Source: a virus. From it: 51,077 bases of DNA. How positions within the stretch are numbered: position 1 is the first letter of the stretch; every line of letters starts with the position of its first letter. Shown here one piece after another: positions 2,877-47,254 of this stretch. The position numbers and the translations under genes were made by a program. The notes under the pieces were generated by a model. It was not told the DNA's origin and made no database searches. It saw only the letters and a program-made list of their open reading frames with translations. The stretch spans positions 1 through 51,077 of IMG/VR virus record IMGVR_UViG_3300021373_001553; one strand, written 5' to 3'.

Positions 2877-2900
2877 GTAAATTATATTGTACATTGTATT
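2862..2900. repeat. 39-bp inverted repeat overlapping the folE promoter
   Basis: The arms AATACAATGTA (2862-2872) and TACATTGTATT (2890-2900) are perfect complements. The bases between continue the pairing with two G-T mismatches, so the whole element is a near-perfect dyad centred at 2881. It covers the -10 box and the predicted start site. Only the right half would be transcribed, so it is better explained as a DNA-level protein-binding site (operator) than as an RNA hairpin. No regulator can be named. Confidence 0.6.
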
Positions 2901-2938
2901 TTTACTGGCAATCCACTGCCTTAACATCGGAGATTAAA

Positions 2939-3628: not shown

Positions 3629-3633
3629 ATAAT

Positions 3634-7640: not shown

Positions 7641-7695
7641 ATATACATAGTAAGAAATTACTTATGCACTGATTATGACAAACGAGGAATACGAA

Positions 7696-8784: not shown

Positions 8785-8799
8785 TGGGTGTGTTGGGTT

Positions 8800-8830
8800 T
8801 GGACGGTCCCGTAAAAAATCGTCCATTTTT
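8800..8830 (+). terminator. Possible weak intrinsic terminator after the ATPase gene
   Basis: TGGACG (8800-8805) pairs with CGTCCA (8820-8825) around a 14-base loop, followed by TTTTT (8826-8830). The stem is short and the loop long, so termination may be partial. The next promoter's -35 box begins at 8832. Confidence 0.4.
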
Positions 8831-8831
8831 C

Positions 8832-8860
8832 TTGACAATACTATTAAATAGTAGTATACT
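8832..8860 (+). promoter_or_regulatory. Sigma70-type promoter ahead of the HEXXH/VWA gene
   Basis: TTGACA (8832-8837) and TATACT (8855-8860), 17 bases apart. The spacer holds a perfect dyad TACTATT-A-AATAGTA (8839-8853), and the -10 box lies in the palindrome TAGTATACTA (8852-8861). Confidence 0.8.
8839..8853. repeat. 15-bp dyad in the spacer of the VWA-gene promoter
   Basis: TACTATT, a central A, and AATAGTA form a perfect inverted repeat between the -35 and -10 boxes. Together with TAGTATACTA at 8852-8861 it makes this promoter unusually rich in symmetry, and it may be a regulator site. Confidence 0.4.
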
Positions 8861-8893
8861 ATATGTATAGAATAACAAAGTGAGAGGCAAATT

Positions 8894-21383: not shown

Positions 21384-21391
21384 TATTTATT
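21384..21391 (-). promoter_or_regulatory. T4-late-type promoter candidate after the giant gene
   Basis: AATAAATA followed by CAC on the - strand, lying over the stop codon of the giant gene and 18 bases before the start at 21365. It would boost expression of the fibre genes independently of the 17-kb gene upstream. Confidence 0.5.
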
Positions 21392-33300: not shown

Positions 33301-36300
33301 TAAATAGTATCTTTAAATGCTGTTTCGTTGTCTAAGATTACTACGTGTTCTTTCTGAACTAATGGAAGTTTTATTGCATATATTCCGTCAGCAGTATTTT
33401 TAACTGTAAACAAAAATTCATTGTCATTAGTTCTTAAAATATTACAAAATTCTGATTTTAATTTCGTTCCATCTGCTTTTACAAGTCCGTAATCATAAAA
33501 CGTATCAAATACGTCATCAACAACTGCGTCATCGCGTTTAAACTGAATTCGCTGAGCTGACGGGCTTACTGTAAGCAAAGATCCGACATCCCAGTTTTGT
33601 AAAGTCCAGAATAAAAATTCTTTTGAACTCAATTTCCAATTTTCAATTTGTTCTAAATTGCTGTTAAAGTTGTTAAAAACAAAACCTTGATCTGATAGAT
33701 GCTCACCGTATCCTAACAAAAAGTCTACAACAGCTTGACTATCAGGTAGTACAGATCCGTATGGTAATTGTTGTACAAAAGTTTTATCAAACTTTGATCT
33801 AAATGTTGCAGATCTTCCGCCAGTTATTGGCAAGCTAGGTAATCTAGCAAATTTAGTTGTATCAAAAGTTTCAGTACTAGTATGTGCTTCTTTAGTCCTG
33901 TAATAGGATCCGCTGTATTCAACTATTGAACTTTCAGTATATCTTTTTCTTTCAGACCATTCAATATACGAAGCACTAATGCCACCAACACTAACTACTG
34001 GATCTTTTTCGTTTTTATTAAACTTATAGTATTTAAAAGTAGGGTTAGTTACATCGTATCCTCTAATAACATAACCTGATGATATTTTTTCTATAACAAC
34101 GCCGCTATATGTAACGATCTCGATAGGACTACTTGTTTGCAACGTTATATTATAATTTTCTTCTGGAATAAAAACATTGCCTTCATTTAAGGGTGTTCTA
34201 GAATCAAGTATTAGATTAAACTTAGACTTATCAGTAAATCCGCCTATTTTAAACGCCATTTGATTTGTAATACTTTTTACATTATTTTGATAGTTTTGAT
34301 AATTAACTAAAATATTACTTGCAAGATAATTTGAAATAAAGTTTATAAACCCAGAACTATATATTCGATTAGTAGTTTCTCGCGCTGAATTATTAGGAAA
34401 TACTAGGTCTTGCAACCGCAGTCTTTTATTGGTTTGAGAATAAACTAGCTGCCCGGTAGTATTTCTAATTGTACGTAATCTATCAAACCCTAAACCTATA
34501 ATTTTTGAAGGTTGATTTAAAATCCAAGATTTAAATAAAGAGAATGGGTAATCTGAACTTTTCCTCCAAGCTGTCTCAACTGGTGCTTCGTCGCCGAATT
34601 TAAATGGCTGACGAGTTAAAGCATTTACATAGTCTCGGGCATAGCCACTATCTAAAGGACTTAATAACTCACCTTGTCCGTTAACTGGTAAATTTGAAGT
34701 TAGATTTGGTCTAATATATTTTTTTAATATTACCTTTGCTTTGTTAGGCTCATTAATTATACCTTTTTCTAAATCAGACCACATAACATCATTATTACTA
34801 GTATAAGGAGCAGGACCATATTGTGTTTCCCACCAAGTTGGTTTGATTGTAAAACCTAACATTTCCCAAGGATGTGTATGTGGTCGGTCGGTATCATAAG
34901 CCTGTTTATATATTGCTCGCCAATAGCCTGGCAATGTCGTTCCAGTTGGAGACGTCATTGAGCTGTAGTTATATGTAAATCGGTCTTCTCTATTGTAAAA
35001 ACTTGAACTAGTATAATCAACATTGCCAACAGTGTTTAGCCAAGATGCAAAATCTTTTAACATTGTGTTGTTTATAGAATCAAAAGATATTCCGGTTGTT
35101 CTAGACGAGCCTGGAATAAAACTATGAATGTCAATTAGGTTACTATCATATTGTACTTTTAAATTATTATAAATTCTTTTTTCAAGTTCTAATAATAAGT
35201 CGTCCCTGTAATCATTAAATGCAGCAGTAATTGACCCATCGTGTCCCTGAATAACCGTTTGCGGTGTTGCATAAGAATCATCAATAAACATTTTTGGTTC
35301 GTATTTTGGATATAAACCTAACTTTGTCGGAGTTGGTGGAACATAACTTCCGTCAGTAGTTTCAAATTCAAATATAGTAATCTTATCAGTAGACTCTAAT
35401 GTAGCAGTAATTTCACAAAAGCCATCTGCATTAAATGTATAGTCCTTGCCGTAAGTTAATTGCACATCATTTAAATAAACGTGAACAGCTAATATACTAG
35501 GAACAGTGATATCAAATGCTTGTGTAAGTGCGTAATATATATTATCTGGTATTGCATCATAATCCAGCCTTCTTGCTGCGCCAGTTGCAACCATATCGCT
35601 AAAATAAAATGGTAGATTACTTGTTTTATTTTTGTTTAATTCTTTAAAGATTAAATCAACGTGTGCTTTAGGTGTACCGTCAAACCCTAATCCTAATGAT
35701 GTTTGTAAAAATAATCTTTTAAATTTTGCATATTCTCTTCTAGCAAAATCTACAGACTTAATAATATTTGCACTTTTATCTGTAATATGATAAAGTGATA
35801 AGTTAGCAGGGCCGCTGTGTTGTAAAAATCTTCTACCATACTGTGCAGGATTATTAATATCACGCAGGTTGCCCGGGCCTGGATAGATTCCAAAAAATTC
35901 ATCTGTTTCTTGTACTATAGTAGAAACGTGTTCGTTAACTTCACCTAATGTAAATGTTGTTACGTCATTGTTTAACGGATTACGTTCTAAGTTTCCAGCA
36001 AGTTCATATACACCATTTTTATTTTTAGTTGCAGCAGAACGTGTTCTTAGTACTATAATGTCATTTTCAATTAACGGATTGTTAAATCTTACAGTAGCGG
36101 TGGTTCCTACATTTACAATTTCATAATCTGTATTAATAAATTTAAGATCATTGTTTACTGTAATTCGAATATTTAAATCATCAAGTGTGCTGCTATTATC
36201 ATATACATCTACTGCAAAATCTGTTTGATTTGTATTAGCAACATACTGACGCAATACACGCTGAGTACTTTCAGTATTTGCTTTAATCCATCCGTTAACA

Positions 36301-38255
36301 CTATCATAATTAGTTCTAGTCAAATAATTGTGCAACACACAAACATCTGTCCCTTGTGTTACTGTTGCTAACGCTGTATCTGTATATGTAAATGTATCTA
36401 GTAATAAATTAAAGTTAAAAACTAGATCTCCAATATTTTGTATACTCTTATACGATAGCGAAAATCCTAACTCACTGTCAACAATTCCTGTGCCAACTTT
36501 ATAAGAAAATAGCTTAGTTCCGTTAAATGTTGAATTAGGATACATTGTTAAATCTGCATAACTATTACCTACGTCATCAAATAAATCAAATAACGGTGGC
36601 TGATTAACTTGTGTTTTTTCTTGTGTTAGATTCCACGAAGTTCCGTTATAGTAAAACATCTTTCCTTGATATGCTTCGCCTTGTAGTGCCAACACTGTTT
36701 CATTTTCTAAAGGAGTAGAATCGGGCTCTTCGACTAAACTTATTTGTTTACGACCTTTATGTGTAACAAATTTAATTTTATAGATTTTACCTGCTTCTCT
36801 AATATCTTCATCAGCAGTAAACAATACACGCATTCCATTTACAAGGTCTATTCCGTCAACGTTATACCCTATCGATCCTTCAATTATTGAAAATATATCT
36901 TTAGTAAATGTATCAATAACATCTACATTTTTCTTATTACTAGTACCAAAATTAAATAATTTTAATCCTGCTTCAAATTCAATAATTGGTCGTGTAGCTC
37001 TTGCTGTTTGATCAACACTAACTGTTTGTCCGTTTGCTAGAGCAGATGCTTCAATTACATCTTTATGGAACCAACGATTATAACGTGTCCACATATTCTT
37101 GTCAAGGCTTCCGCGATTAATTACAATATAATCTTTTGCAGTTGGGTATCCGTTAGCATTTGCAAACGGTAGTCTATCAAACGCATTAGTATCAAACGGA
37201 ACATCTTTATTATCTGCGTACGATCCAGGTATTTCTAAACTAGACTCTTTTATTAGTTTAATAGAATTGCCAACACCTTCTACGTACCAGTCACCTTCTG
37301 CATATTCTGCAGGAGTTACAATCCCTGCAAAAGATATTTTCATACCATTTGAAAGTGTTGTGCCTTGAGATGAGGTATATGATGTTTTTCCTAATACTTC
37401 TTTTTCTACATTAATTTCTGTATTTTCTTCAATATCTTTAATTTGTATTAAACCAGTATTGTTGATATCATTTTCAGCAACATAGTATAATACTTCTGGA
37501 GTAGAATTTCCAACTGTAAATGTTATTTTTCCTTTTTCTACACCTTGAGAACTAACACCATCATTATAATTAAAACTTTCTTCTAGTGTCCTCTTTGTTT
37601 TAATAGTAATTGGTGTGCCGGTTGTATCTATGTCAAACGTATATGTTTGTCCTCTATACAAAATTAATGTTGGGTTATTAACTAATTCATCTGTGCTAAA
37701 ACTATATGTAACATTGTCTACATTGTTAATAAGTTTAACGGCAATAGTACTTTCAACTCCGCGTTCTTGTCCTGCAATTCTTACAGTTTGCGGACCATAT
37801 GGTAGCCAATAATACTCACGAAAGTTACTAAATTTATCCCAATCAATATGAGGATTCCAAGCATAGAATTCTTGTGAGTTTAATATATCTTGATTTTCTA
37901 CGTTGCCGCCAAAGCTACTAATTTGATTCAAGTAGTCATTATAGTCTTTATAAAAAGTTACATTGTCTAAATTATCTTTAATTATTGTTGCGGGTTCAAA
38001 CTGATAGTTTTCTCTGCTCGTTGACACATCACCAACGTAGTTGTCGTCGGCATTATATGCTTTTGAAATTTGTCTACCGTAATAACCATTTAGCTTTTCA
38101 GCAACTCCTGGTTGCGTAAGCTGATCTAATGTTGCTTGTAAAAACTTTTTATTTGTTTCTGTTCTAAAAAATCGAGGTAGTAAAGATTCACTTTTTCTGT
38201 TGTTATTACCTTCGGCTGGTAACGGATATTCGTTTTGATCGTTATCGTAAGACAT
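21387..38255 (-). CDS. Giant baseplate/fibre-associated structural protein, 5622 aa
   Basis: One uninterrupted 16.9-kb frame in the place held by gp7 in T4 gene order (directly after gp6). T4 gp7 is 1032 aa, so any equivalence is positional only. Visible parts, by approximate residue: a conserved N-terminal region (1-160; L-L-P-R-F-F-R-T, F-Y-A-W-N-P-H-I-D-W-D-K-F); four carbohydrate-binding-like modules (near 1433, 1692, 2190, 3057); FG-GAP-like propeller blades (2090-2170 and 3130-3330); paired G-x-G-Y-x-x-x-P repeats (3760-3820 and 4115-4175); a His-rich inserted domain (4463-4805); and a C-terminal array of V-x-V-N-G-x-x-L beta modules (4860-5500). It starts on the gp6 stop (TAATG). It is most likely a very large wedge or fibre protein reaching toward the host surface. 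Confidence 0.8.
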   Translation of the reverse strand: MSYDNDQNEYPLPAEGNNNRKSESLLPRFFRTETNKKFLQATLDQLTQPGVAEKLNGYYGRQISKAYNADDNYVGDVSTSRENYQFEPATIIKDNLDNVTFYKDYNDYLNQISSFGGNVENQDILNSQEFYAWNPHIDWDKFSNFREYYWLPYGPQTVRIAGQERGVESTIAVKLINNVDNVTYSFSTDELVNNPTLILYRGQTYTFDIDTTGTPITIKTKRTLEESFNYNDGVSSQGVEKGKITFTVGNSTPEVLYYVAENDINNTGLIQIKDIEENTEINVEKEVLGKTSYTSSQGTTLSNGMKISFAGIVTPAEYAEGDWYVEGVGNSIKLIKESSLEIPGSYADNKDVPFDTNAFDRLPFANANGYPTAKDYIVINRGSLDKNMWTRYNRWFHKDVIEASALANGQTVSVDQTARATRPIIEFEAGLKLFNFGTSNKKNVDVIDTFTKDIFSIIEGSIGYNVDGIDLVNGMRVLFTADEDIREAGKIYKIKFVTHKGRKQISLVEEPDSTPLENETVLALQGEAYQGKMFYYNGTSWNLTQEKTQVNQPPLFDLFDDVGNSYADLTMYPNSTFNGTKLFSYKVGTGIVDSELGFSLSYKSIQNIGDLVFNFNLLLDTFTYTDTALATVTQGTDVCVLHNYLTRTNYDSVNGWIKANTESTQRVLRQYVANTNQTDFAVDVYDNSSTLDDLNIRITVNNDLKFINTDYEIVNVGTTATVRFNNPLIENDIIVLRTRSAATKNKNGVYELAGNLERNPLNNDVTTFTLGEVNEHVSTIVQETDEFFGIYPGPGNLRDINNPAQYGRRFLQHSGPANLSLYHITDKSANIIKSVDFARREYAKFKRLFLQTSLGLGFDGTPKAHVDLIFKELNKNKTSNLPFYFSDMVATGAARRLDYDAIPDNIYYALTQAFDITVPSILAVHVYLNDVQLTYGKDYTFNADGFCEITATLESTDKITIFEFETTDGSYVPPTPTKLGLYPKYEPKMFIDDSYATPQTVIQGHDGSITAAFNDYRDDLLLELEKRIYNNLKVQYDSNLIDIHSFIPGSSRTTGISFDSINNTMLKDFASWLNTVGNVDYTSSSFYNREDRFTYNYSSMTSPTGTTLPGYWRAIYKQAYDTDRPHTHPWEMLGFTIKPTWWETQYGPAPYTSNNDVMWSDLEKGIINEPNKAKVILKKYIRPNLTSNLPVNGQGELLSPLDSGYARDYVNALTRQPFKFGDEAPVETAWRKSSDYPFSLFKSWILNQPSKIIGLGFDRLRTIRNTTGQLVYSQTNKRLRLQDLVFPNNSARETTNRIYSSGFINFISNYLASNILVNYQNYQNNVKSITNQMAFKIGGFTDKSKFNLILDSRTPLNEGNVFIPEENYNITLQTSSPIEIVTYSGVVIEKISSGYVIRGYDVTNPTFKYYKFNKNEKDPVVSVGGISASYIEWSERKRYTESSIVEYSGSYYRTKEAHTSTETFDTTKFARLPSLPITGGRSATFRSKFDKTFVQQLPYGSVLPDSQAVVDFLLGYGEHLSDQGFVFNNFNSNLEQIENWKLSSKEFLFWTLQNWDVGSLLTVSPSAQRIQFKRDDAVVDDVFDTFYDYGLVKADGTKLKSEFCNILRTNDNEFLFTVKNTADGIYAIKLPLVQKEHVVILDNETAFKDTIYDLEPGYRQERIRVLGYRTADWSGGLNIPGFIYDQAVVTEWTPWKDYAIGDVVKYKEYYYTATVKITGSEVFVPKDWYRLAEKPTPGLLTNLEYKTNQFADFYDLDTDNFDINQQEVAQHLIGYQKRDYLANIINDDVSQYKFYQGFIADKGTKNALTKLFDALGAADKESLNFYEEWAVRTGQYGAADGYEELEFLLDEEQFRLSPQPILLTDTIPDDVSDLIYRQLPSSVYVAPKDYNGKPFPTAYVEETSIKTAGYVRQDDVDFVVTNKDEILNLDITQFDRNEYVWVTFENQEWNVYKHIDTSYTITSAIPDGDNCTLVLNKISNFKEGDFIGIQNITDLNGFYKVLSSSVNRISIDLGDVAFAQQQDNLSGILTTFISNRVSKLEDANEYAQRESTKDEKIWIDSADDKGRWNVLQASPAYNLDEDVINPTQSNTSFGKSIAADTTNTFIAIGSPDNNEGKVHVYKRQQDGSTVYGTLQPHQTLEPIANFDNGASKFGSSVTMSPDGEYIVVGAPEATYVKSSFKDDFTFTNDYKLGAIVQYEGGLYKSRRSVKGNADNIVFGSFDSASRWRSELYKVHNSYADFPTLALGDLPLAVSTDHILVRAPIDSYEGSNVGDKLYLDWNDITNAYDNNSGVNITGINMTSPMQLITQTDHGLSDSDPIIITDVPNDNIVLPDTGQFDNSDVNTPYDTIQQQGVKGLENRTYFVKVVTSQQIELYEDAALSQRVNSNIGFSGQPIGAAAANLNLGDGSIQGIIRQIETPLNGVTEPGVPWKTFLTSDVHTIRRKVTDVFYVLDPVNIPDIPVELTLAGNLPNAINVGDVIRQENNTVVGTIKQINNNIVQVINVSGIFKTGADGGGNITYTSGETTVVASNTTPSAVTTIVNEGVSVTTSTGNATVVYARNELGKLVIYANNKNGVFDATGELFINDQFKIGNYERPLHDEIDRSSVLGGFWEIALPQSITTTNIHKDNAYGLVIRDVKNNYNPSNYSSPDATWTESATLLPYKSSLQNALDNPVQILVGVDQPFQKEIDLIRVLSHKSQGVAGVVTETDVLDPRYVVRIPKIVSDKATSAFANESTPNPYIGVFLNDLPDSNGNTPDLTNKGFGTNVFSIINQTKVPVDLWDGYIDYDVFDLTLDLEVGDTIREGETGATAEVAYYQRDGDQVRVYVKNIAGTFTFGTRYITGVAPASMFLYKQVGAVLTRVGTTESRQLADDDIGKLAVFQHTENLTIPPTLTYAINSETDEIADYEVEFITGVEYQTWIEEFKPGTSRVSLAPSTENNDWAEINNIPINVGRDASTIVKEGAYFVYKHNSETDQYDLVNGYILPNRETNRQLGKQVKLINNQDFYKLAINSNESHANDEKQEVSPTGKGRVYFVINGQDEFGTYNWEQGRNKNFKGIYRNTSAYYIDQIVIYQDSFYKALTNLDNEEFDSTKWQLVSDHADFVGYVPNTSGFVFPGDDSSIVNLNTSEFGTVFDISESGSVFATIAKYSDGTSKLVIYRLKDSHFEYVTEFTAPATSTGFGNAIAVSDNGNLIAVGAPSTDTDQLKQGQIFIYKNVNGTFTLFQTLSSPNKELSEGFGSRLGFDGNQLVVTGTTSDIILDTTFDRYQNKKSGSTYVNDPRSALQVGETLFDGGFTTYARRVEDSGLVFIYENINDTLIFGQRLTYNNFNVKDFGDNILVKNDTIMVGLPNLSVVGELSGKVAVYIKASDSRTWRVLRQPIDPITIKKFRGSFLYNTVENKMLTRLDIIDPLQGKIAGVAEQELSYKTYYDPANYNVGFANTKEQFITWDNQNVGKLWWDLSTVKFLDYRQGKLTFAQNVWNTLAKGASIDVYEWVESKILPSAWDSQADTNEGISRGYSGQTKYGDTKYVEKDVYDKISQTFSKRYYFWVKNKKIVPNVEGRVRSGFDIANIIADPAGQKLKFVNILGSDRFILYNCNNLLENKDIAINFRYWTIENQDNNIHTEYQIITDGLETSRPKNIIEQKWFDSLVGQDLYQRPVPDPTLSVKQKYGNLNRPRQGWFINRVEALKEVIERVNRVLETQLAIDNLDLTKLSEKDPTPTLLSGQYDEAIDTEAELRLVGTVRATQAQLEAVVVDGTVTKVNIVNAGRGYRNPPNVTVTGTGQGLELQVVLNNIGAISSVNILDGGTNYQDTITLAVRPLTALVRADSTLGGIWVLYSWDSVNRNWTVSKQQQFDVSQYWEYKDWYATGYSNLTSFDYLIDDYYQLNIIDDSIGDIVKISSVGTGGWILLEKIINIDTPDYTTGYKTIGRENGTIKFLDKIYTTEEGKTELRKILEIIRDNLFINELANEYNQLFFASLRYVLSEQNYADWLFKTSFVKAKHNVGQLVEKTTYQNDNLPSFEQYTNEVKPYKTKIREYLSAYDKTDNTQSVITDFELSPFYSVQLGQIVSPQVQITDGVLSGINFDETEYPQKHWIDNFTYSIDEIIIKDGGTGYSEAPTVIITGGGGTGAKARAFIGSGSVTSIVVTDPGSGYTSVPTVTIIGTQAENSKLPSVSVILKNKKVRTLNVKQKFDRITPNFEIFNLPETETFTSTGTELKLILKYPMDLARANVRVFFNNIEALSSEFSYNNEEILVSDKSYTKEVGYILLDSSKIAGTLIKVEYNKGYELLSAADRINLLYNPVTGQYGKDLGQLMDGVDYGGVEVRSFEFGQDAGFDSQPWYTSAWDTYDENFDDESFVTEGITTSFVLSKPFDEDSSYNVYVNTTRVDDPNYDGSTKTYLADDGSTILALGNPNAIMKTLTTESDEYEITTDANGLPVYKVNIQNVDEWEDFFASEGTPAVPAVPAVTADPEYNNGAIIDVVGDGSDFFKREVTTNGVRIMGAGTVGGQTAVPDAFLEKVARMFELFTDPNGVGINQTYQRALIKTLSGDTGTYHAGLPTIQRVARGAGADYTPNFLTDAGVISWNLTNLFDTHVQNDMVWYLNSTGDGYGDGDIDAQEVIEHVFHTLHMHGLPADDIKLYSFLAADWQTGDLYAAMEEAFDGGFWDPTGYQVNPDDWKTDADAFEVAAKEYLYLLNFSMFEYTELWDGGSLAPEWADSVRTQAGIQANNPLGYAFHNTYIAPVISKPSLATIRSIFQDGNTPAQDDPSLAGASGYVVDILSEGSPEIPAIPGVASDPTITIRKSTSDGSFLPSGAGFDSLIEGGNLQYGTATGLDAGDINIDGDGFVTPTTSKGPEELVPGQLHDTLDLKVYDRAAAGGSAISTRNYIATASQKIFALDILPHNIYSLLVKVNGVLLTEDDYVIDYNLKIITLNTGLALGDKVNIISMSGNGERILDIDYFTGDGTTKIFVTNVVHIDGIQSYITVDGVSAKVEVFKTDSTYGELEGLVGIEFVVPPEENSHIFYALYDTNEEDIQRYSEVTVNRFVGDGSTVGYQLDPAPFTKLPLSHNIIVKVNNTILYPGYTQHWYVVPTREYPLDPAQQAPSSLSPDEVDVYLNGKKLVLLNDYNWDFANSQVVLFDNVGETGDDLEIVIPKNREYQFSQNTRISLASVTGTFEVGETVNIGTGDSTVYSAVVKSYSSGNLVIVGTILGLVEAVDDDNTLPVTGVTSGATSATILGVTLIEAGDSLVLTQAPNEGDTIDVYKFSRHEIQDIQMETSTNVIRSTLTVGSEDYYDAHRLGRGLIKLRSAALDTAYVWVSLNGELLTPNVDYKLVKLDTYIHIARKLETNDIVQVIHFAATPSNAKFGFRLFKDMLNRTHYKRLNKDNIYTLAEPLNITDKTIVLADATGITQPSKELNVPGVLFVEGERIEYFTVTNNTLGQLHRGTLGTGPKDTYEVGTECMDQSTSETIPYTDQMVSLIALDDESTQIVLDWVPTKGVNEFEIFVGGRRLRKNAIPSYQFQEVDANGNVTTGLIDQNSPEGDIVLQPEFTLAIDDNVATVSLVETPAENSRILVVRKIGKTWQLPGEQLRYADNSIANFIRGATTDLPK

Positions 38256-41200
38256 TAGTAACTATATCCTCCACCGCTACTTGATCCACTGCTACTTGAT
38301 CCACTGCTACTTGATCCACTGCTACTTGATCCACTGCTTAAGACATTGCCTGAGACATTGCTTCCTGATGCACTAACTACTCCTGATACTTGTGTTGCAT
38401 CAGTATATATTGCTCCGGTTGCTTTTAATTTTGACGCTGTTAGCGAAGACACTACTTCTATATTATCTACTGTTGCCGAACTTACAAAAATCTCATCAGC
38501 TTCGCTTCTTACCTCAAACATACTACCAAAAGACAACGAGTTTTGTACTGGAACAATTACAAACGCTGCAAGATCAGGAGCAAGTTGAGTCATTACATAA
38601 TTACTAAGTTCTGAAAAGTAAAATGTGTCTCCAAACTCCCAATTTTCAATTGCAAAAAATTCATTTATTGCTGCAATTACATTAGTTTTTAATTCGTTTT
38701 CGTTTACAACTCTATCTGGATTTTTAACTACTTTAAACATTGCTTTTAGATCATCCGATGCTTCGGTACCAAATAGTACTTTGTACTTAACCGGATGATA
38801 TATAACTTCATCTGATATTGACTTAATTTTATTAATTTCTTCTCCAAAGTTAACATATAAAGAATCAGAACTAGGTGCTAGTGGTTTAGTTTCTATTGCT
38901 CCTTGTAAATACTGTCTGTATAACGTATCATATTGCTTTGTAAGCATATATACATCAATAATGTTAGAACTACTAGGATCAATTCTACTACTTTCATCAG
39001 CAGCGTGTTCATATTGGAAAATAATTTTATCTCTTCCTGAATATGCTCTATAGTCAACTGACAAGTCTAATTTTTCTGTTGTTACATTATAAACTTTGAA
39101 TATGTCCTTATCTATTTGATAGAAAACAGAATTATCAGGATAGCTACTTATTCCATTGTCAGTTATTTCTGCTTCGTTAGCCACTACTTGTATATTTTCT
39201 GTTGTTTGATCAACATATCTAAAATCGTCAACATTATCAGTTGTAATATATTTCTTTAAGAATACATATTTTTTACTTGTATTAGTAGTAATAAATTTGT
39301 CAAATATTTCTGGATCATCAACCACACCATCGTCGTCACTATCAAAAAATCCTACTTCTATCTTCTTAGCATCAACATATCCTTCACCGTCTCTATACTC
39401 TTTAACAATTTCCCAATTGAACGGAACTGTAAACGGTGTTAAAGCATATCCGTCAGCATCTGGTTGTGTATTAATAGACATTAGCGATATCTTATCTTTT
39501 ATAATTTGATTAGTTAACGGATCGTATACTTTATCCGAACTATCATAATAGAATCGTATTTCTCTATCACTCTCAAACACATATCGCTGGCCTCTGTAGG
39601 TTATTGTATATGTTTCACCGTTAGTTTGGAATAACAACAACCAACTTGCATCTAAGTTTTGATTAGATAAATCTCCAGTTTTGCCAGTACTAAAGTTAGA
39701 GCGTATGTCAAGATCGGCTTCTAGTATAACACGCCAAGTGTTTGTTTGGAAGTCATATCGAAGTCCGAATGTCTTGTAAGTAAATATTTGGTCAATTATT
39801 TGTGTTTTAATTTGTGTTTCTATTTCTGTAGTAAATAGTGGTTTAATTTCTGTTAATTGGGGAGCTGTTGTTAAATCATTATTAATAGGTCCTGGAATAA
39901 TATCGTTTAAAACAATAGCACCTTGTCCGTCGTTTGTATTGTCAACTCCCGGACCGCTAACGCTTACAACCTTAGTCCATTTATAAGTTGTTGCTCCTGG
40001 ATGAGTTGCGGCGCCAGCCATTATAGTTCCGTCAGGCATAAAATGATATCCTGTTGGAGCTTCAAATTTAAGCATTGCTCCAGGTTCTAAGTACTGTAAT
40101 GTTGATGCTGTAAATGTTCCTGTTTTTAATTTAGAAAAATCTGCATCTGTAAGATAACCAGTAGTTATATTCTGCGCTCGGGTAACTTGATTCCACCTTG
40201 CTCCAAGATCGCTAACTAATATTTTTGCAAACTGTGCATAATAGAAGTTTTTAACTTTATAATCTTTTAAAATTCTTTCAATCTGAGTTTTAATAATACC
40301 TTCAATATCTGTTTTTGTATTAAAAGTAAATGTTTCTTTGTTTATTAGTGTTTGTGTGTAAAGTATTCCGTCTTTACCGTATAAATTAGTTTTACTATAT
40401 TTTCCAGTTGCATCTAGCAAATCGTAATATCTTGATATTCCGCTTGACGTTCTGTTTACACTTTTTACTTTTATAATTTCTTGACTAACTGCTAGTGGTG
40501 ATATCTGATAATCTTCACCTGTTACCATTCTATTTTGCGTATAATACGTTGCAGGTGCATTTGCTTTTATTTCATTATTTGATTCAGAAGTAGTACCGTT
40601 ATCAACAGTATATTTTAGCTCTAATCCTATTGTAAGTTTTTCACTTGTTCCTGTTTTACTTTGATAAGGGATACTAATTGTAATATTAATTAATTCATCT
40701 GGTGTAATAACATAATTTCTGTTATCGCTTGTTCTATAGTAAATTTTAAAATTTCCTTTAGGCAAAGATCCAAAAGTTCCGTCACTAAAAACTAAACTAA
40801 CTCTATCTTCTACACGAGTTAGTACACTATAAATATTTCTAATATTTTTACTTAAACTATTATATACAATATTGTTGCCTTCTACAGCATCAACCTTTGT
40901 CCACAATTCTGATTCATTACCAAGATTATCTAATTTGTATAACCAAGTATCTGAATTATTGACATTAATTGCATCAATAGCAACAACTTGATTTGCACTT
41001 GGTTTAGAAATGTTAAAATTGCCTTGGTCTAATCTTCCTTGTCTAAAATGTGCAAAAAATCCTGTGTTGTTTGATCCAGCGCCTTGACCGTCATCTCTAT
41101 ACAAAAATGCAAAATTACTTCCTGGTAAAGGTGCTTCTTCAACAATATTTCCGGAGCTAATATCAGTGCTAACTATTTCAAACTGTGTTGACTTACCGTC

Positions 41201-41815
41201 TACACTTTTACTAAATCCGTATACCGGAATGTCAGTATTTGTACCATTTACCCTATACTGTTCTGCGCTTATACCATTAACTATATCAGTTTTGTTTGGT
41301 CTACCAAAAACTCCATTTGCTGGTAGTGCTGAATTTAATACTTTAACAAACTGCTCGTACCAGTCTTGATTTGAAATATCGTTCCATACAATAGTCTGTC
41401 CTGATAAATTAGTTCCGTTAGAATCAAATAAATCTTCAGTTGTACTAATTGTTTCAAACTTTAATAATCCGTTGGATGCTTGATTACGTTTAGGATTATA
41501 GGAAAGCAATCTTGCTAAACGTAATACGCTTTCACGGCGTTCTGCTAATTCTAAAAAGTTTTCACGGGCATTTAAATCAATTCGAAAACTAATATTTTGA
41601 CCTAAGAAAGCAATAAGATCAATTAATGCCAAGTATTCACTTGACTCTACATAGTCATTAAAATCTTCTGGATAGTTTTCTCGTAAATATGAGATCATTG
41701 TTCTGCGAAGATTGTCAAAGTCATAGCTTTGAAAATCCGCATTGCGGAATGACTGGTAAACACGCTTCCAATCTTCTGCTAATAATAGTCTGTTTTGTCT
41801 GTCGGTTGTTGACAT
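38255..41815 (-). CDS. 6: Baseplate wedge protein gp6, 1186 aa
   Basis: The N-terminal 130 residues (D-F-D-N-L-R-R-T-M-I-S-Y-L-R-E-N-Y-P-E-D-F-type run, then E-Y-L-A-L-I-D-L-I-A-F-L-G-Q-N and N-A-R-E-N-F-L-E-L-A-E-R-R-E-S-V) are the hallmark of gp6-like baseplate wedge proteins, which ring the tail hub and link the wedges. D-G-T-F-G-S-L-P-K-G (near 350) and V-T-G-E-D-Y-Q (near 430) also fit the J-like baseplate family. At 1186 residues it is much longer than T4 gp6 (660), with extra domains in the second half. The C-terminus is a Gly/Ser-rich tail encoded by a 15-bp tandem repeat. AAGGAAAG and a late-type promoter precede the start, and it is coupled to the giant gene. Confidence 0.9.
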   Translation of the reverse strand: MSTTDRQNRLLLAEDWKRVYQSFRNADFQSYDFDNLRRTMISYLRENYPEDFNDYVESSEYLALIDLIAFLGQNISFRIDLNARENFLELAERRESVLRLARLLSYNPKRNQASNGLLKFETISTTEDLFDSNGTNLSGQTIVWNDISNQDWYEQFVKVLNSALPANGVFGRPNKTDIVNGISAEQYRVNGTNTDIPVYGFSKSVDGKSTQFEIVSTDISSGNIVEEAPLPGSNFAFLYRDDGQGAGSNNTGFFAHFRQGRLDQGNFNISKPSANQVVAIDAINVNNSDTWLYKLDNLGNESELWTKVDAVEGNNIVYNSLSKNIRNIYSVLTRVEDRVSLVFSDGTFGSLPKGNFKIYYRTSDNRNYVITPDELINITISIPYQSKTGTSEKLTIGLELKYTVDNGTTSESNNEIKANAPATYYTQNRMVTGEDYQISPLAVSQEIIKVKSVNRTSSGISRYYDLLDATGKYSKTNLYGKDGILYTQTLINKETFTFNTKTDIEGIIKTQIERILKDYKVKNFYYAQFAKILVSDLGARWNQVTRAQNITTGYLTDADFSKLKTGTFTASTLQYLEPGAMLKFEAPTGYHFMPDGTIMAGAATHPGATTYKWTKVVSVSGPGVDNTNDGQGAIVLNDIIPGPINNDLTTAPQLTEIKPLFTTEIETQIKTQIIDQIFTYKTFGLRYDFQTNTWRVILEADLDIRSNFSTGKTGDLSNQNLDASWLLLFQTNGETYTITYRGQRYVFESDREIRFYYDSSDKVYDPLTNQIIKDKISLMSINTQPDADGYALTPFTVPFNWEIVKEYRDGEGYVDAKKIEVGFFDSDDDGVVDDPEIFDKFITTNTSKKYVFLKKYITTDNVDDFRYVDQTTENIQVVANEAEITDNGISSYPDNSVFYQIDKDIFKVYNVTTEKLDLSVDYRAYSGRDKIIFQYEHAADESSRIDPSSSNIIDVYMLTKQYDTLYRQYLQGAIETKPLAPSSDSLYVNFGEEINKIKSISDEVIYHPVKYKVLFGTEASDDLKAMFKVVKNPDRVVNENELKTNVIAAINEFFAIENWEFGDTFYFSELSNYVMTQLAPDLAAFVIVPVQNSLSFGSMFEVRSEADEIFVSSATVDNIEVVSSLTASKLKATGAIYTDATQVSGVVSASGSNVSGNVLSSGSSSSGSSSSGSSSSGSSSGGGYSY
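38276..38335. repeat. Four perfect tandem copies of a 15-bp unit in the gp6 3' end
   Basis: The unit GCTACTTGATCCACT is repeated four times without change (38276-38290, 38291-38305, 38306-38320, 38321-38335). On the - strand each copy encodes five residues of a Ser/Gly tail (S-G-S-S-S in rotation). The unit length is a multiple of three, so copy-number change keeps the frame. Confidence 0.95.
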
Positions 41816-41876: not shown

Positions 41877-42323
41877 TTAAGTTAAAATAGAGTTGTCTTC
41901 ATCAAATTTCATACGCATACTTTCTGATATATTATAAGGCAAATATAGTAATGTACATTCTATCATAATGCCGCTTTCGTATGTATCTACAGTAACTTGT
42001 TCTACTTGAACACGCGGATCATAGTTGATAATATCTGTAACATTATTTGCTATCGCTTCTCTTAAAAGTTCTGTCATTGGTTCAAAAATTACGTCCCAAA
42101 TAATAGTACCAAATTCAGGATTCTCAAGTTTTTCACCTACACGAATATGAAAGTGATTGATAATGTCTTGTTTTATAAGAGCAATATCATAAAGATTAAA
42201 GCTAGTATTTTCTGGATTTGTTGTTGAAATACCTCTGTAGGCACGACTTTCTACAGGTACAGAAGGACGCTTATTTCCTTTTACTGTTATTTCTTTGTAT
42301 AATTTTTTTTCTTCTGTGCTCAT
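41877..42323 (-). CDS. 25: Baseplate wedge protein gp25, 148 aa
   Basis: Small wedge protein of the gp25/W family. The core G-E-K-L-E-N-P-E-F-G-T-I-I-W-D-V-I-F-E-P-M (63-83) carries the conserved E-F-G turn and the F-E-P that mark this family, followed by a helix (T-E-L-L-R-E-A-I-A) and a beta strand with Y-D-P-R-V. Length is close to T4 gp25 (132 aa). It joins gp6 at the hub-wedge contact that controls sheath contraction. Ahead of the start is GAGGG; this overlaps a TAAATAC motif that is too close to the start to be a normal promoter. Its place next to gp6 supports the call. Confidence 0.92.
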   Translation of the reverse strand: MSTEEKKLYKEITVKGNKRPSVPVESRAYRGISTTNPENTSFNLYDIALIKQDIINHFHIRVGEKLENPEFGTIIWDVIFEPMTELLREAIANNVTDIINYDPRVQVEQVTVDTYESGIMIECTLLYLPYNISESMRMKFDEDNSILT

Positions 42324-42338: not shown

Positions 42339-44810
42339 CTATTGTGGACCTGCTGCAGGATCTACACGTTTTCCTGCTTCAATGTTTGTTCCTGCAGGTT
42401 CAGTCGTAATACTTGCTACTGGTACAAGATCGCCTGTAATAATCTTACTTGCAAAGCCTTTGCCAAGTCCTATTCGATTTGCAGTTTCTTTACCGCCTTG
42501 ATTTGCATATCCAACAGCTTTACGAAATTGTTCGCCTAATGCAGAATAGTCATAACTAGTCCAAGTTATTGATTTAGATTGTATGTATGCACACGCAATT
42601 CTTACAGCAATTTCTGGATCGTTGACTAAGTCTGGATTTGCAACAATTTCCGGATGACCTGCTTTAGGACCATATGTTTCGTAGTTGCCTTTAAATGTTA
42701 ACTGAATAAGTCCTCTACCACGATACTTGTAACCTTCGTTTTGGGCATTGCCGTAACGATTACCGTAAATAGTATTACCGATAGCTGCTGGTCCGGCTGC
42801 TGCAAGTTCTTGTGCAAATGCGTCTGTTTTAACACGAGTTGGAAATACTCGTCTCAGCGTAGATGCTCTATAATTTAAGTTTTCACTCCTTGGTTTGAAA
42901 CCGCACTCTGCTTGTATTTGTGCCATCGCCATACCAAGTGCTTCAGCATTGCCCGGTGTCTCACCTTCAGCAAGTCTAGCCGGATCTGCTGTTTTTAATG
43001 CGTTTGCAGGGTCTAGTCCAATCTTTTTAATAAGTTCGTTTAAGAAAAACTGTTGTAGTAGTGTAACTTCTACAGGTTTAGCAGGTTGATCGCCAATTGG
43101 TCCTACTTCTCCTGGTACAACAGTTTGTGGTCCATTTATGTTTGCTGCTGTTACTGTTGAGCCTGCTGCTGCACCTGCACTGGTAGTTAAGTCGCTATCG
43201 CTACTTAACAACGGTGTAGATTCTCGTAATGCTGGACTTGGTGAACTGCTTGCTTGTGTAAAGCCAGGAGTAAATGTTCCAGGATCTAAATGCTCGTGAC
43301 CTAACCAAGGTTCGTGTACTGGAACACGTACAGGCCAAAGTGCTGGTACTGCAACATCTGCTTGGGCCGCATTTCCTGCGGTTGCTGCTTCAGTTGCTGC
43401 TGGACCGTTCATATGAATTTCAGTAGCCGTCTCGTTATGGTTTCCACCACTAAGAATATCTGTATTTCCGCCTGCTGTAAGATAATTATATCCTCCAGTG
43501 TTTAAATCTAAATTTGCTTGTGTATCTTTTCTATCACCTTTAGTATTAATATCTAGTGTTGCGTTATTTGTAATAGTATGAGCACCAGTTACAATTAGAT
43601 CTCCGGTAGCGCCAACAAATATCTTCTGTGACGCTCCAACATAATGATTTTCATCAGCACCAATTTCTATATTGTGGTTTCCGCCAACTTTATAATCGCT
43701 GTTATTACCGACAGTAAGTTTGTAATCTCTACCTGCATTATAGTTAATATCACGTGCCGCAGTCATATTAATATCTCTATCAGCACTTATATTAAGATCG
43801 TTTTGAGTCCTAATACTAACACTGTCTTGTGCATAGATATCAATTTTGCCATTGGCTGTCATTTCTATCCAAGTACTACCTGTTGCATTGCCAATGTAAA
43901 TTAAGTCTTCTGAATTGTGTAAAAGAATTTGATGTCCTGTACGTGTTCTAATTCTAAAAGATTCGCCTTTAGGCAATGTCTTAATACCTGTGGTTGCTTG
44001 AGGGTCAGCAACTAAATCAGTATATAACATTGCGTCTTGTCCGGCAAAACTATTTCTTAAAAAGCGTTCGTCGCCGTCATCCATAACAATACTAGAACCA
44101 CCTAATATACTTGTAAATGTTTGTGTACTATATTCTTTTGGACCAACTTGGCTTTTAGGTGCACCGTCTCTTTTGTCTCGAGGTCCAGGTGTACTAATAC
44201 CAAATACACTACTAGGTAAGTTTCGTCTACTAGTACTATTAGCAGGGCCTCTAATATCGTCATCTACTAGACCTTGTCTTCCAAGTATAGTATAAAAGTC
44301 GTTGTTAACAGGTTTAATGTATTTCGAAGGATCATTTCCAACACCAGTCGAAAGTCGTTTATTATATTCTCCTGTAGGGAGTTTTTTAGAACTGTCAGTG
44401 TTGTTGTATATCGTGCCTGCCCACGGATCTGGTGTCATATGGTTTTGATATACATCCGGAACACATCCTATCCAATATCCTCTTGCTATGTTACCTTCTG
44501 CAAACATAACAAGTACTTTTGTTCCTACACTAGGAGGTACTGCCCAAAATCCGTAGCTTTTTTGAGTTCCTTGAAAATCGTCTTTAGATGTGGTTCCATC
44601 AATTGGTGTTACTCCAGCAAACGGACTCATATATTGCACTGTAACAATTTGACCCGATCTTTCAGGTTGATTGCCTGCTGTACTATTTTTTAATAGTTCA
44701 ACTTGTATTGCACCCATTCTTTTTGGATCGAGTAGAGATACAACCAATGCTTCATACGGCCCTGGATTAATTACTAACGTTTTTCTTGCTGAACGTCCGT
44801 CAATTGCCAT
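42339..44810 (-). CDS. 5: Baseplate hub/spike gp5 with C-terminal GH19 glycosidase, 823 aa
   Basis: Three parts are visible. The N-terminus (1-110) is the gp5 OB-fold type (Y-E-A-L-V-V-S-L-L-D-P-K-R-M-G-A-I-Q-V; Y-G-F-W-A-V-P-P-S-V-G-T-K-V-L-V-M-F). Residues about 300-480 form a spike beta-helix with short repeats (I-S-A-D-R-D-I-N-M-T-A-A-R-D-I-N). The C-terminal 570-785 is a GH19 chitinase/lysozyme-type domain: A-Q-I-Q-A-E635-C-G-F, S-E643-N-L-N-Y, N-T-I-Y-G-N-R-Y-G-N, Y-R-G-R-G-L-I-Q-L-T. T4 gp5 carries its lysozyme in the middle; here the muralytic domain is a different fold placed last. It should cut peptidoglycan during tail penetration. Start coupled by TAATG to the upstream gene's end. 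Confidence 0.9.
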   Translation of the reverse strand: MAIDGRSARKTLVINPGPYEALVVSLLDPKRMGAIQVELLKNSTAGNQPERSGQIVTVQYMSPFAGVTPIDGTTSKDDFQGTQKSYGFWAVPPSVGTKVLVMFAEGNIARGYWIGCVPDVYQNHMTPDPWAGTIYNNTDSSKKLPTGEYNKRLSTGVGNDPSKYIKPVNNDFYTILGRQGLVDDDIRGPANSTSRRNLPSSVFGISTPGPRDKRDGAPKSQVGPKEYSTQTFTSILGGSSIVMDDGDERFLRNSFAGQDAMLYTDLVADPQATTGIKTLPKGESFRIRTRTGHQILLHNSEDLIYIGNATGSTWIEMTANGKIDIYAQDSVSIRTQNDLNISADRDINMTAARDINYNAGRDYKLTVGNNSDYKVGGNHNIEIGADENHYVGASQKIFVGATGDLIVTGAHTITNNATLDINTKGDRKDTQANLDLNTGGYNYLTAGGNTDILSGGNHNETATEIHMNGPAATEAATAGNAAQADVAVPALWPVRVPVHEPWLGHEHLDPGTFTPGFTQASSSPSPALRESTPLLSSDSDLTTSAGAAAGSTVTAANINGPQTVVPGEVGPIGDQPAKPVEVTLLQQFFLNELIKKIGLDPANALKTADPARLAEGETPGNAEALGMAMAQIQAECGFKPRSENLNYRASTLRRVFPTRVKTDAFAQELAAAGPAAIGNTIYGNRYGNAQNEGYKYRGRGLIQLTFKGNYETYGPKAGHPEIVANPDLVNDPEIAVRIACAYIQSKSITWTSYDYSALGEQFRKAVGYANQGGKETANRIGLGKGFASKIITGDLVPVASITTEPAGTNIEAGKRVDPAAGPQ

Positions 44811-47254
44811 TATACAGCGGTGCTCCCTGTATTGTTTTTAATTTGTTCTTTACCAGGATCGTTATTTTCTGACGATTCTACTGCACCTGGATCACTAGTT
44901 TGTCCAGTAATTGGTGAGTCATCTTGTTTTGGTCTTCTATTCATACTTAACACCTGTGTAAATTTTCCGCCACTAAAACTGTTTTCAACAGTGTTTACTT
45001 TATATAAGCCACTAAATGCCTTTACAGGAATAGTGTCTTGTGGGAATATCATTGATCCTTTTTCACCGTCATAATCAATAGGTGTACGGAAATTAACATT
45101 CACTTCAACTTCGCTTCTTTGATAATCCATTGACCCATCAGCTGTGTACGCTTTTGCTGCAACCGGTGAACTATAATTTCCAACTCCACTATCTGCTAGG
45201 TAGTAAGGATCTCCAAGAACCGTAAGATCCATAACAATCATATCAACGTTGTTATTTACTATTGCTTCATTAAACATTCTAGCAACCTGAACTGCTGGAG
45301 AATCCATTGTTGATCCTCCTCCTTTACCTGTGCCGTTAGCATCTCCTACATCGGCTACATTAGGATTAGAAAATCCACTACCTTCAGAATTTCCTTCAGA
45401 TGCATTATAAGATTCTTCAGTAGACCCATTTGATCCGTTTTTTGCTTGAAGTCTAGAATCACCACTACCGTTTATATTTGTGTTTAATGCTTTGTAAAAT
45501 GCATTATTAAAATTAATTTCAAAGTCAAGTATGTCGTCGTTCTTTCCTGTATAGATATAATCATATGTTTTAGCTGCTTGCTGTTTACGTTTTTCAATAC
45601 CAACTGATGGTTGCGAAGCATTATTAAAAACTGATGAGTGAACTTTGTAAGGAACAACAGCATAAACGTATACCTTTGGATTTTCGCCACTTACGCTTCT
45701 TACTTGTTCATCAGGTACTAAAAATGTTTGAGTATGAATTCTGAACCAGTTTATCATTCCGTCTGAATCTGGAGTAAATTCTGTTGCGGCTGCTTTACCA
45801 TAAGAGCTTAAAATAACTATTTCTTCAATAATTTGTTCAACACTAGTACCTAGCGGAAATGTAAATTCTCTAAAATCATTTGAAATTGTAACTTTTTCAG
45901 AAACATATACATCTTTTTCGTTTTTTGTGTATGCTTCGATACCAAACGGAGTATTGCCGCCTTCAACCATTGACTTTGCAATAGTTCCCTTGCCAATTGG
46001 ATTAGATAATTCAGAACTTTCTGCAATTCTTCTAACAGCCGAAGCTACATTATTATTGGTTATATACAATTCTTTATACTGATCAAAAGCAGTTTGTACT
46101 TCTTCTTGCCCAGCTTTCGGAAGCTCGTTATAATTTTGTAAACCTTGGGACTTTCTATAAAATTCTTCTACGGTCATTGCTGCATTGTCACTGGTGCCAC
46201 TATCAGTCTGAGAGTCTAATCCTAAACTAGATGTTAGTTCTTTTGGAAACATAATAACATATTCATCTTTGTTTATCGGAGCAGTCTCTCCTTCAGCTTT
46301 TTCTCTTATGCGTTTGTTCATAACAGCAGTTAAACTATTTGGACCTTTTTGTAATAGTTCAAGCACACTATCGCCACTAATTTTTACATCACTTTTAGTA
46401 TGCTGTGCAATATTACTTAACGCACTTTCGTTAAATGCGTGTGCTGAAATATTATATGCCGATCCTCCAGCATTTACATCAAAATCCATTTTATTAATTT
46501 TTATTGGAAATACTCGTCTACCTAATGCTCCTACACTGTGTGGGTTTCCGTTATCATCAAATCCTTTAAAATCAATAATAAGAGCATACGGTGCTTTTAA
46601 GTAATCAGCGTGTCCTGCATCTAGAGCTGCAATCATTAATGTTTGTAGAAATAATCCCATACTGTATGGTTCGTGAACTACAAAACTAAAAGTAGTAGCA
46701 TTAGATGTTCTAGTTGCTGTTGTTGGAGCCATAACTGAATTCATCTTTAGCTCATCGATAAAATATTCTAATTGTGCGTTTGATGTTTCGTATGCTGTTA
46801 GTGCTTTTCCTGGAGCTCCGCCGCCTGAACGCAATACTGTTACTTGCGGTGCTTTGACACGATATGTAGTGTTAGGAAAATTTAATTCATTAACAGTTAA
46901 ACAAGCAAGGGTTATGTTATAGTTATATGAGGCATACTTTTTTAATACATTGTCAGTAGAACCTAAAACTAAATTTGGATTTAATGCTGTCTGCGTTATT
47001 ACTTCAGCTTGCTGTTCAAACGATGGCGTTGACAGCCCTATTTTATTAGCAACATCTATTGTTGACCCAGAAAATATATCTTCAACACTATCTTTAAAAC
47101 TTTCAATAACTTTAATGCCGCTGTTAAGAGCACTAGATCCCTGTCGAACTAAGTTTTCAGCTTGTGCAGACGGATCTGATAGTAGATCATCTCCAACGCC
47201 TTTAGCACGTTCAAGGCTTTTCTGGACTATTTTTGTCGCTCTAGGGATTGCCAT
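44810..47254 (-). CDS. Baseplate hub-region structural protein (gp27-like candidate), 814 aa
   Basis: The gene lies between gp53 and gp5. The first third contains Y-N-Y-N-I-T-L-A-C-L-T-V and H-E-P-Y-S-M-G-L-F-L-Q-T-L (near 199-211). The C-terminal region (about 640-790) contains V-D-M-I-V-M-D-L-T-V-L-G-D-P-Y-Y-L, then G-L-Y-K-V-N-T-V-E-N-S-F-S-G-G-K-F-T-Q. That last pattern (Y-x-V-x-x-V-x-N-x-F-x-x-G-x-F-x-Q) is typical of hub proteins of contractile tails, the gp27/gpD type, which hold the spike. T4 gp27 is only 391 aa, so this is a larger version or a fusion. A Ser/Gly/Asn-rich linker occurs near 590-640. The hub call is inferred from position and the C-terminal pattern. Confidence 0.55.
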   Translation of the reverse strand: MAIPRATKIVQKSLERAKGVGDDLLSDPSAQAENLVRQGSSALNSGIKVIESFKDSVEDIFSGSTIDVANKIGLSTPSFEQQAEVITQTALNPNLVLGSTDNVLKKYASYNYNITLACLTVNELNFPNTTYRVKAPQVTVLRSGGGAPGKALTAYETSNAQLEYFIDELKMNSVMAPTTATRTSNATTFSFVVHEPYSMGLFLQTLMIAALDAGHADYLKAPYALIIDFKGFDDNGNPHSVGALGRRVFPIKINKMDFDVNAGGSAYNISAHAFNESALSNIAQHTKSDVKISGDSVLELLQKGPNSLTAVMNKRIREKAEGETAPINKDEYVIMFPKELTSSLGLDSQTDSGTSDNAAMTVEEFYRKSQGLQNYNELPKAGQEEVQTAFDQYKELYITNNNVASAVRRIAESSELSNPIGKGTIAKSMVEGGNTPFGIEAYTKNEKDVYVSEKVTISNDFREFTFPLGTSVEQIIEEIVILSSYGKAAATEFTPDSDGMINWFRIHTQTFLVPDEQVRSVSGENPKVYVYAVVPYKVHSSVFNNASQPSVGIEKRKQQAAKTYDYIYTGKNDDILDFEINFNNAFYKALNTNINGSGDSRLQAKNGSNGSTEESYNASEGNSEGSGFSNPNVADVGDANGTGKGGGSTMDSPAVQVARMFNEAIVNNNVDMIVMDLTVLGDPYYLADSGVGNYSSPVAAKAYTADGSMDYQRSEVEVNVNFRTPIDYDGEKGSMIFPQDTIPVKAFSGLYKVNTVENSFSGGKFTQVLSMNRRPKQDDSPITGQTSDPGAVESSENNDPGKEQIKNNTGSTAV

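Follow-up and report, generated by a model that had tools for sequence, protein, structure and literature searches.

Does a phage tail spike that ends in a wall-cutting enzyme point to a new way of entering the cell, or is it one form of a more general design? The question is raised by the virus record IMGVR_UViG_3300021373_001553 of IMG/VR, of which we analysed positions 1 to 51,077 (51,077 nucleotides, hereafter the window). An 823-amino-acid (aa) open reading frame (ORF) with an ATG start occupies 42339-44810 on the minus strand. The original prediction, made from the sequence alone, read it as a gp5-type hub spike with the order OB fold, spike, linker and GH19 domain; the stated position and strand are correct, and Pfam and PHROGs bore out this order (OB, spike, then a C-terminal GH19). 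Judged by these family matches, the ORF is confirmed as a central spike of the gp5/VgrG type ending in a GH19 domain. Its features are as follows.

42339..44810, minus strand: central spike protein (gp5/VgrG type) with C-terminal GH19 domain, 823 aa (Pfam, PHROGs; 79 related loci)
44454..44765, minus strand: OB-fold domain, about residues 16-119 (Pfam Phage_base_V; AlphaFold model matches contractile-system central spikes)
44055..44453, minus strand: insert between OB and spike, about residues 120-252, conserved in the family
43371..44054, minus strand: beta-prism/beta-helix spike, about residues 253-480, boundaries approximate (Gp5_trimer_C and DUF2345 below cut-off; weak Gp5_C)
43293..43328, minus strand: tip peptide RVPVHEPWLGHE, residues 495-506, between spike and linker (counts of RxPxxEP[WY]xxHE)
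43080..43292, minus strand: flexible linker, residues 507-577 (composition, length, fewest invariant columns)
42435..43079, minus strand: GH19 endolysin-type domain, residues 578-792 (sequence matches and AlphaFold model)
42906..42908, minus strand: codon of E635, first GH19 catalytic Glu (invariant in 47/47 distinct tails)
42882..42884, minus strand: codon of E643, second GH19 catalytic Glu (invariant in 47/47 distinct tails)

The N-terminal half was compared with known central spikes in sequence and in predicted structure. Pfam placed Phage_base_V on residues 84-117 above its cut-off (25.9 bits, cut-off 23.8), and Gp5_trimer_C on residues 346-416 (29.5 bits, cut-off 30.9) and DUF2345 on residues 317-470 (27.8 bits, cut-off 30.7) slightly below theirs; a Gp5_C repeat matched the spike region weakly (E 0.046). 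In the whole-protein search of the PDB, the middle of the protein matched 9jg8, a VgrG spike of a type VI secretion system (T6SS; E 0.0015). An AlphaFold model of residues 16-330, built from 45 sequences and covering the prism at its start only, had a predicted local distance difference test score (pLDDT) of 86. In Foldseek, this model best matched central spikes from a contractile injection system, cyanophage A-1(L) and T4 (1k28, gp5, E 5e-4), at E values of 1e-4 to 5e-4 and template modelling (TM) scores to the query of 0.2-0.4. In VIA-align, the model fitted central spikes with Z of 9-10 over about 150 residues, among them 7aef_q of a contractile system (Z 9.9, 157 residues); the A-1(L) row (Z 11.0, root-mean-square deviation 16.6 A) was not relied on. 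In the good fits to central spikes, about 150 of the 315 residues in the model are aligned, and the insert of about 130 residues (120-252) seems to be skipped. The insert occupies the place of the lysozyme of T4 gp5, which does lie between OB fold and spike, as the original prediction had stated (PMC3004832), and no lysozyme model of Pfam or PHROGs matched it. A lysozyme remnant in the insert was considered and dropped, since it had no family match in these two databases, where it was searched, as it was folded, together with its flanks. The T4 arrangement is thus not that of the window spike, whose glycosidase is C-terminal and of the GH19 family.

For the C-terminal domain, GH19 (PF00182) scored 24.8 bits on residues 690-742 in the protein-level Pfam scan, just below the cut-off of 25.5, and 26.7 bits in the six-frame search, above it. 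In addition, phrog_181, annotated 'endolysin', matched residues 625-747 (E 1.4e-32), and the solved GH19 endolysins 8p8e, 9ms6 and 4ok7 ranked first in the whole-protein PDB search (E 2e-13 to 5e-10). A profile of the domain found 32 distinct PDB sequences at E <= 0.001, mostly named chitinase or endolysin, with E values down to 5.8e-21 for endolysins. By these matches, chance is excluded as an explanation of the predicted GH19 identity. The AlphaFold model of residues 572-800 (26 sequences, mean pLDDT 72.8) first matched the phage-type structures 7r6s and 9ms6 in Foldseek (E 2e-4 and 5e-4, TM score about 0.5) and next mostly GH19 chitinases. VIA-align fitted it to 8p8e (Z 13.1, 186 residues, 3.5 A), 9eoi (Z 12.9), 4ok7 (Z 12.5) and TseP (8xcl, Z 10.6), values to be read with the caution that helical models such as this one can commonly reach Z scores as high as 13-14; GH19 rows stand at the top, and a lytic transglycosylase scores 8.2. 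E635 and E643, correctly placed by the original prediction in the family positions, align with the two catalytic Glu of GH19 endolysins (E49 and E58 of SPN1S). These are 99% conserved according to a GH19 database paper (PMC8547705), and the corresponding residues of PaGH19Lys are E51 and E60, of which an E60Q variant was made and assayed (PMC12329726). Loss of either Glu in relatives was looked for, and both were invariant in all 47 distinct tails, 40 of the window's type (GH19a) and 7 of GH19b.

To place the protein in its family, relatives were gathered by four pattern searches with the best 80 matches kept in each, which gave 79, 80, 80 and 76 new loci. In the first (79 loci, 100 to 37% identity in the best segment), two of the six patterns lay inside the GH19 domain; 75 of its loci were scored, L063 and L065 being incomplete at the 3' end and L070 and L071 lacking the N-terminal part. 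Altogether 329 loci were gathered and 4 left out (L001, L081-L083); 323 have a spike ORF and 311 a complete 3' end. By locus, the C-terminal module was none recognised in 97, VgrG3-like in 85, GH19a in 84, low-complexity in 22, a second GH19 in 9, GH24 with an M23-like part in 6, a lysozyme-like module (lysX) in 6 and lysozyme-like plus trypsin-like in 2. Among distinct ORFs the numbers were 67, 68, 51, 16, 8, 6, 3 and 2 in the same order. These counts are query-dependent samples and not a census, with some contigs present under two locus ids, and labels outside the proteins scanned with Pfam and PHROGs were assigned by BLAST similarity to a single representative. The 75 scored loci of the first search comprised 67 GH19a, 4 VgrG3-like, 3 with no module and 1 second GH19. 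L073 has a VgrG3-like C-terminal domain well above its cut-off (PF21277, 86.5 bits, cut-off 27); for lysX the Pfam match is weak (PF06737, E 0.024) and the label comes from phrog_27932 (E 9.5e-38), and 'low-complexity' means that the sole member scanned, L290, had no recognised enzyme. Judged by these domain assignments, the enzyme-at-end order is common in this spike family, with modules that vary or are not recognised at all. The relatives of the latter kind show that an enzyme in cis is dispensable in some members.

Other candidate arrangements were also considered. The idea that module-less relatives have the enzyme in a neighbouring gene was dropped: in L104 and L115 the spike adjoins a 143-aa ORF with the size and position of gp25, and in this adjacent stretch no ORF of at least 60 aa lies between the two on the same strand. 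GH19 domains in Proteus phage 10 and Aeromonas phage AhC3_1 belong to proteins of more than 1,700 residues that are not spike-like on reading. A scan of bacterial genomes that reaches close relatives only gave 34 pattern matches to the GH19 part, of which 0 were confirmed. In one GH19 spike, L029 6001-8856 (952 aa), the GH19 domain is followed by a further stretch of about 130 residues rich in Thr, Ser, Glu and Pro.

Ten spikes come from named phages: two are spike-only, six have a C-terminal module recognised by Pfam, and two were assigned by similarity. PA5oct and SCTP-2 are the spike-only cases (477 and 476 aa), and the PA5oct homologue is annotated as detected by electrospray ionization tandem mass spectrometry. 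A C-terminal Phage_lysozyme domain (PF00959, GH24) above cut-off is present in the spikes of 121Q, GAP32, RaK2, Munch and Vibrio phage 2.275.O, together with an M23 match below cut-off in the last four and none in 121Q by Pfam. In the Agrobacterium phage Atu_ph07 (L088 2905-5502), an endolysin-like part (phrog_90, E 1e-22) is followed by Trypsin_2 (E 6e-17); the passages of the published report that list its gp699 as a predicted lysozyme do not mention a protease domain (PMC6102473). The modules of XaC1 and Phosso are the two assigned by similarity, and neither has a Pfam match. The spike of Sinorhizobium phage Phosso (L092 3914-7048) resembles that of Atu_ph07 in sequence, and the Gly/Ser linker that follows it is very long.

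A tree of 115 non-redundant spikes was built with the module columns excluded; it is a quick tree with long branches flagged, and changes on it were counted regardless of direction. The eight module states need 8 changes on it, against a minimum of 7 and a mean of 63 when shuffled. One change each was counted for the VgrG3-like, GH19a, second GH19, GH24/M23 and lysozyme-trypsin modules, two each for lysX and low-complexity, and six for none. The group of all GH19a spikes has weak support (57), and a 16-row group with the window spike has a support of 99. Since one change suffices for all but one of the six enzyme modules, the modules look to be inherited within groups and seldom changed, and swaps look rare and old.

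A further conserved element lies between prism and linker. The peptide RxPxxEP[WY]xxHE was found in 75 of the 75 scored loci of the first search and 0 times in shuffled controls; only this search counts it fairly, because its patterns excluded the peptide while the three others each had one of six patterns on it. Counted over whole ORFs, 195 of the 221 distinct spike ORFs contain it, whether or not they carry an enzyme: GH19a 51/51, second GH19 8/8, VgrG3-like 68/68, lysX 3/3, no module 65/67, GH24 0/6, lysozyme-trypsin 0/2 and low-complexity 0/16. PA5oct, SCTP-2, Atu_ph07 and Phosso have the shorter form (H/F)EP(C/F)xxH instead. A degenerate form such as RVPQAGAWTGAEN is present, whole or in part, in the stretch displayed for 9 of the 16 low-complexity ORFs, and for the other 7 the displayed stretch falls elsewhere; the six RaK2-type spikes have HxH instead of the peptide. 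We conjecture that the tip peptide is a metal-binding or cap-binding apex. A further and decidedly tentative idea is that a separate class of phage spikes has RxPx(H)EP(W)xxHE as its true tip. There, a trimeric His/Glu cluster, perhaps metal-bound, would take the place of the HxH apex or the PAAR cap, and the warhead behind it would be GH19, a VgrG3-type muramidase, another lysozyme-like domain or a trypsin-like one, or would be absent. If this were so, the clade would correspond, among phages, to evolved VgrGs. No PAAR tip protein was detected at E <= 0.001 within the window, which is a 51-kb fragment record.

In our view, the protein is probably the central spike of a T4-like contractile tail with a peptidoglycan-cutting enzyme tethered at the far end of the needle, where it would act as an entry lysin. 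This reading rests on the family and fold matches of both halves, on a gene that lies between structural and baseplate genes, on the invariant Glu pair and on the purifying selection on the GH19 part. It is also in line with the C-terminal modules in spikes of named phages, with the reported detection by mass spectrometry of the PA5oct homologue and of CBB_240, and with a T6SS spike whose C-terminal muramidase works in the periplasm of its target. The needle, presumably of three chains and part of the virion, would carry three GH19 domains on linkers of about 70 residues past the tip peptide. Their position before contraction is not fixed by the domain order, because an extended linker of 69-85 residues could run along the spike or beyond it. 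On contraction, the needle would cross the outer membrane of a presumably Gram-negative host and bring the GH19 domains into the periplasm; if active, they would cut glycan strands beside the tube, which would thereby gain access to the inner membrane. The spike itself would serve as a chassis, whose place past the tip peptide is filled by other wall-cutting modules or by nothing recognised. Four points weigh against this reading. First, the GH19 model is of moderate confidence, and E635 and E643 (model residues 64 and 72) fall in a stretch with pLDDT below 50, so that the model informs on the fold and not on the geometry of the active site. Second, the residue before the first Glu is Ala634 (Ala in 39 and Lys in 1 of 40 GH19a tails) at the position of His48 (ELYS numbering), which is present in 93% of GH19 endolysins and is not universal (PMC8547705). 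Third, residue 770, the presumed Asn187 of the -2 subsite, varies in a by-eye alignment (N 26, D 13, E 1 of 40). Fourth, the RaK2 homologue went undetected by mass spectrometry (MS) in its own virion (PMC3622015).

The linker bears on an alternative in which the GH19 domain is cut off the spike at maturation or ejection and acts as a free lysin, the linker being the processing site. T4 gp5 gives a precedent, as its linker is cut between Ser351 and Ala352 (PMC3004832), and the linker end around QPAKPV is well kept in most of the GH19a relatives displayed. However, no cleavage motif or protease was identified, though no search was aimed at one, and the linker is mostly variable. It ranges from 69 to 85 residues among the distinct GH19a tails of 39 relatives, residues 504-577 contain the fewest invariant columns (9 of 74), and the ratio of nonsynonymous to synonymous substitution rates (dN/dS) against nine relatives is 0.051-0.448. 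For comparison, dN/dS was 0.041-0.290 for OB plus insert and 0.035-0.153 for the GH19 part, where it was below that of the spike in six of the nine pairs, in several of which dS is close to saturation. The GH19 domain is thus under purifying selection. We consider release of the domain unlikely. The original prediction had called the linker Pro/Ala-rich and had taken the domain order to imply either another mechanism of penetration or cleavage of the product. The enrichment itself stands (Pro plus Ala make up 25% of residues 507-577 against 12% of residues 1-480), with the amendment that Ser, Thr and Gly are about as rich. The implication drew no support, given the linker length, the cleavage of T4 gp5 and how common the order is: gp5 of T4 is itself linker-tethered and cleaved, so that cleavage is no mark of a new mechanism.

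Two of the points raised above against tethered, active GH19 domains, Ala634 in place of the usual His and the variable -2 subsite position, would also suit a non-catalytic domain that only binds peptidoglycan and anchors the tip in the wall. The rest of the active site argues otherwise. All 40 GH19a tails keep both Glu, Y682, G698-R699-G700, Q703, T705, N709 and Y710 without exception. When SPN1S positions are mapped through the 4ok7 alignment and Table 1 of PMC8547705, T705 corresponds to the water-coordinating Thr130, and Y682, Q703 and N709 to the substrate-binding Tyr106, Gln128 and Asn134. Furthermore, the spacing between the two Glu, 8 residues against 9 in GH19 endolysins, equals that of TseP, a T6SS lysozyme with the dyad E655/E663 (elsewhere given as E654) and an inactive E663D variant (PMC11893102). 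A purely binding role is therefore quite unlikely. That the protein doubles as the lysis endolysin of the phage is very improbable, even though close families of its GH19 domain are endolysins and the Pfam scan of 25 window ORFs (a 5622-aa ORF lying outside it) gave no other lysis enzyme, for GH19 is spike-fused in all 68 of the 75 scored loci that have it (loci partly picked via the spike), and a separate endolysin may lie outside the window, only a 51-kb record.

The tethered-lysin reading takes the spike gene as part of a tail gene cluster, and its neighbours are as follows.

41877..42323, minus strand: gp25-like baseplate wedge protein, next downstream after a 15-base gap (PF04965, 33 bits, cut-off 27.2)
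38255..41815, minus strand: gp6-like baseplate wedge protein, probably gp6 by its position (phrog_10646, E 1.3e-290; phrog_219)
44810..47254, minus strand: virion structural protein directly upstream, probably the hub ring protein by its position (phrog_11190, E 1.5e-30)

Both phrog_10646 and phrog_219 are annotated 'baseplate wedge subunit', and the protein of 38255..41815 has no Pfam match. A protein of 600-800 aa stands in the place of the upstream structural gene in nine of the ten named relatives, the exception being Vibrio phage 2.275.O. A T6SS cluster with an immunity gene was not found: the record is viral, the genes follow phage tail order, and no gene separates the spike from gp25. 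Next to the gp6-like gene, the 5622-aa ORF occupies 21387-38255 on the minus strand. Over about 110 bases (23888-24000) it shows 90-93% identity to cyanophage records in the 10 matches listed out of 85 to window positions 1-24000; three of these 10 are annotated 'baseplate wedge initiator'. Elsewhere on the plus strand, 11782-13509 encodes a protein with an N-terminal Mtd_N domain (PF18454, 'major tropism determinant', 35.9 bits, cut-off 26.3), and 7675-10240 encodes an AAA ATPase, with MoxR-like proteins among its matches, followed by a DUF2201 metallopeptidase/VWA protein, perhaps a chaperone-like pair. GTP cyclohydrolase I and QueE-like radical SAM genes lie at 2894-4527 (plus strand), which we take to suggest a deazaguanine or queuosine pathway.

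These results show that the T4 layout, with the enzyme inside the spike protein, is one solution among several, and that a group of uncultivated and jumbo phages uses the spike end as a fixed chassis for alternative wall-cutting modules, like evolved VgrGs. To us this chassis, one spike end and one conserved tip peptide with several modules, is a more interesting finding than the GH19 fusion. It provides a set of candidate virion lysins, and opens the questions of how the type of enzyme relates to the host wall and of whether the tip peptide is a metal-bound apex.

Among known systems, the RaK2-like spikes of jumbo phages (RaK2 gp078, 121Q gp587, GAP32_234, CBB_240) share the order OB fold, spike and C-terminal wall-cutting enzyme; they are homologous over about 400 residues at about 30% identity and also have gp25- and gp6-like wedge genes downstream. 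They differ in the enzyme, which is GH24 and in several comes with a sub-threshold M23-like match; they often have a further lysozyme gene between spike and gp25, and their spike lacks HEPWxxHE and has HxH near its end (six sequences). The enzyme-at-end order was already published for RaK2 (gp078, 2013) and CBB (2017). The CBB paper describes CBB_240 (CBB_250 in parts of the paper) as having an N-terminal gp5 OB and a C-terminal lysozyme, notes M23, states that the order differs from that of T4, and includes the protein in its MS table of virion proteins (PMC5259590). T4 gp5 shares the OB fold, the trimeric needle and a peptidoglycan glycosidase on linkers, but its GH24 lysozyme is the middle part, between OB and needle, with long linkers that run beside the helix, and the needle forms the C-terminus (PMC3004832). 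Evolved VgrGs of the VgrG3 type share the OB fold, the prism and a C-terminal muramidase past the spike, and a T6SS spike of this kind is reported to work in the periplasm of the target (PMC9927483); here, in contrast, the surroundings are phage tail genes without a secretion cluster, and the 15-base gap to gp25 holds no gene. The GH19 endolysins SPN1S (4ok7), PaGH19Lys (9eoi) and KTN6 gp46 (8p8e) share the fold and the catalytic Glu, but are stand-alone enzymes with the longer Glu spacing and with His where the spike has Ala before the first Glu. Delftia phage PhiW-14 has GH19 in a gp5-annotated protein adjoining gp25, but near the N-terminus (about 61-246 of 588), and phage A-1(L) is described as having wall-cutting domains in the hub protein, not the spike (PMC10966104). 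Among the matches listed in our literature search, which covered sources other than subscription papers and preprints, none reported GH19 at the end of a phage spike. The arrangement itself is thus known from some giant phages, and GH19 in the place of the enzyme at the end looks new.

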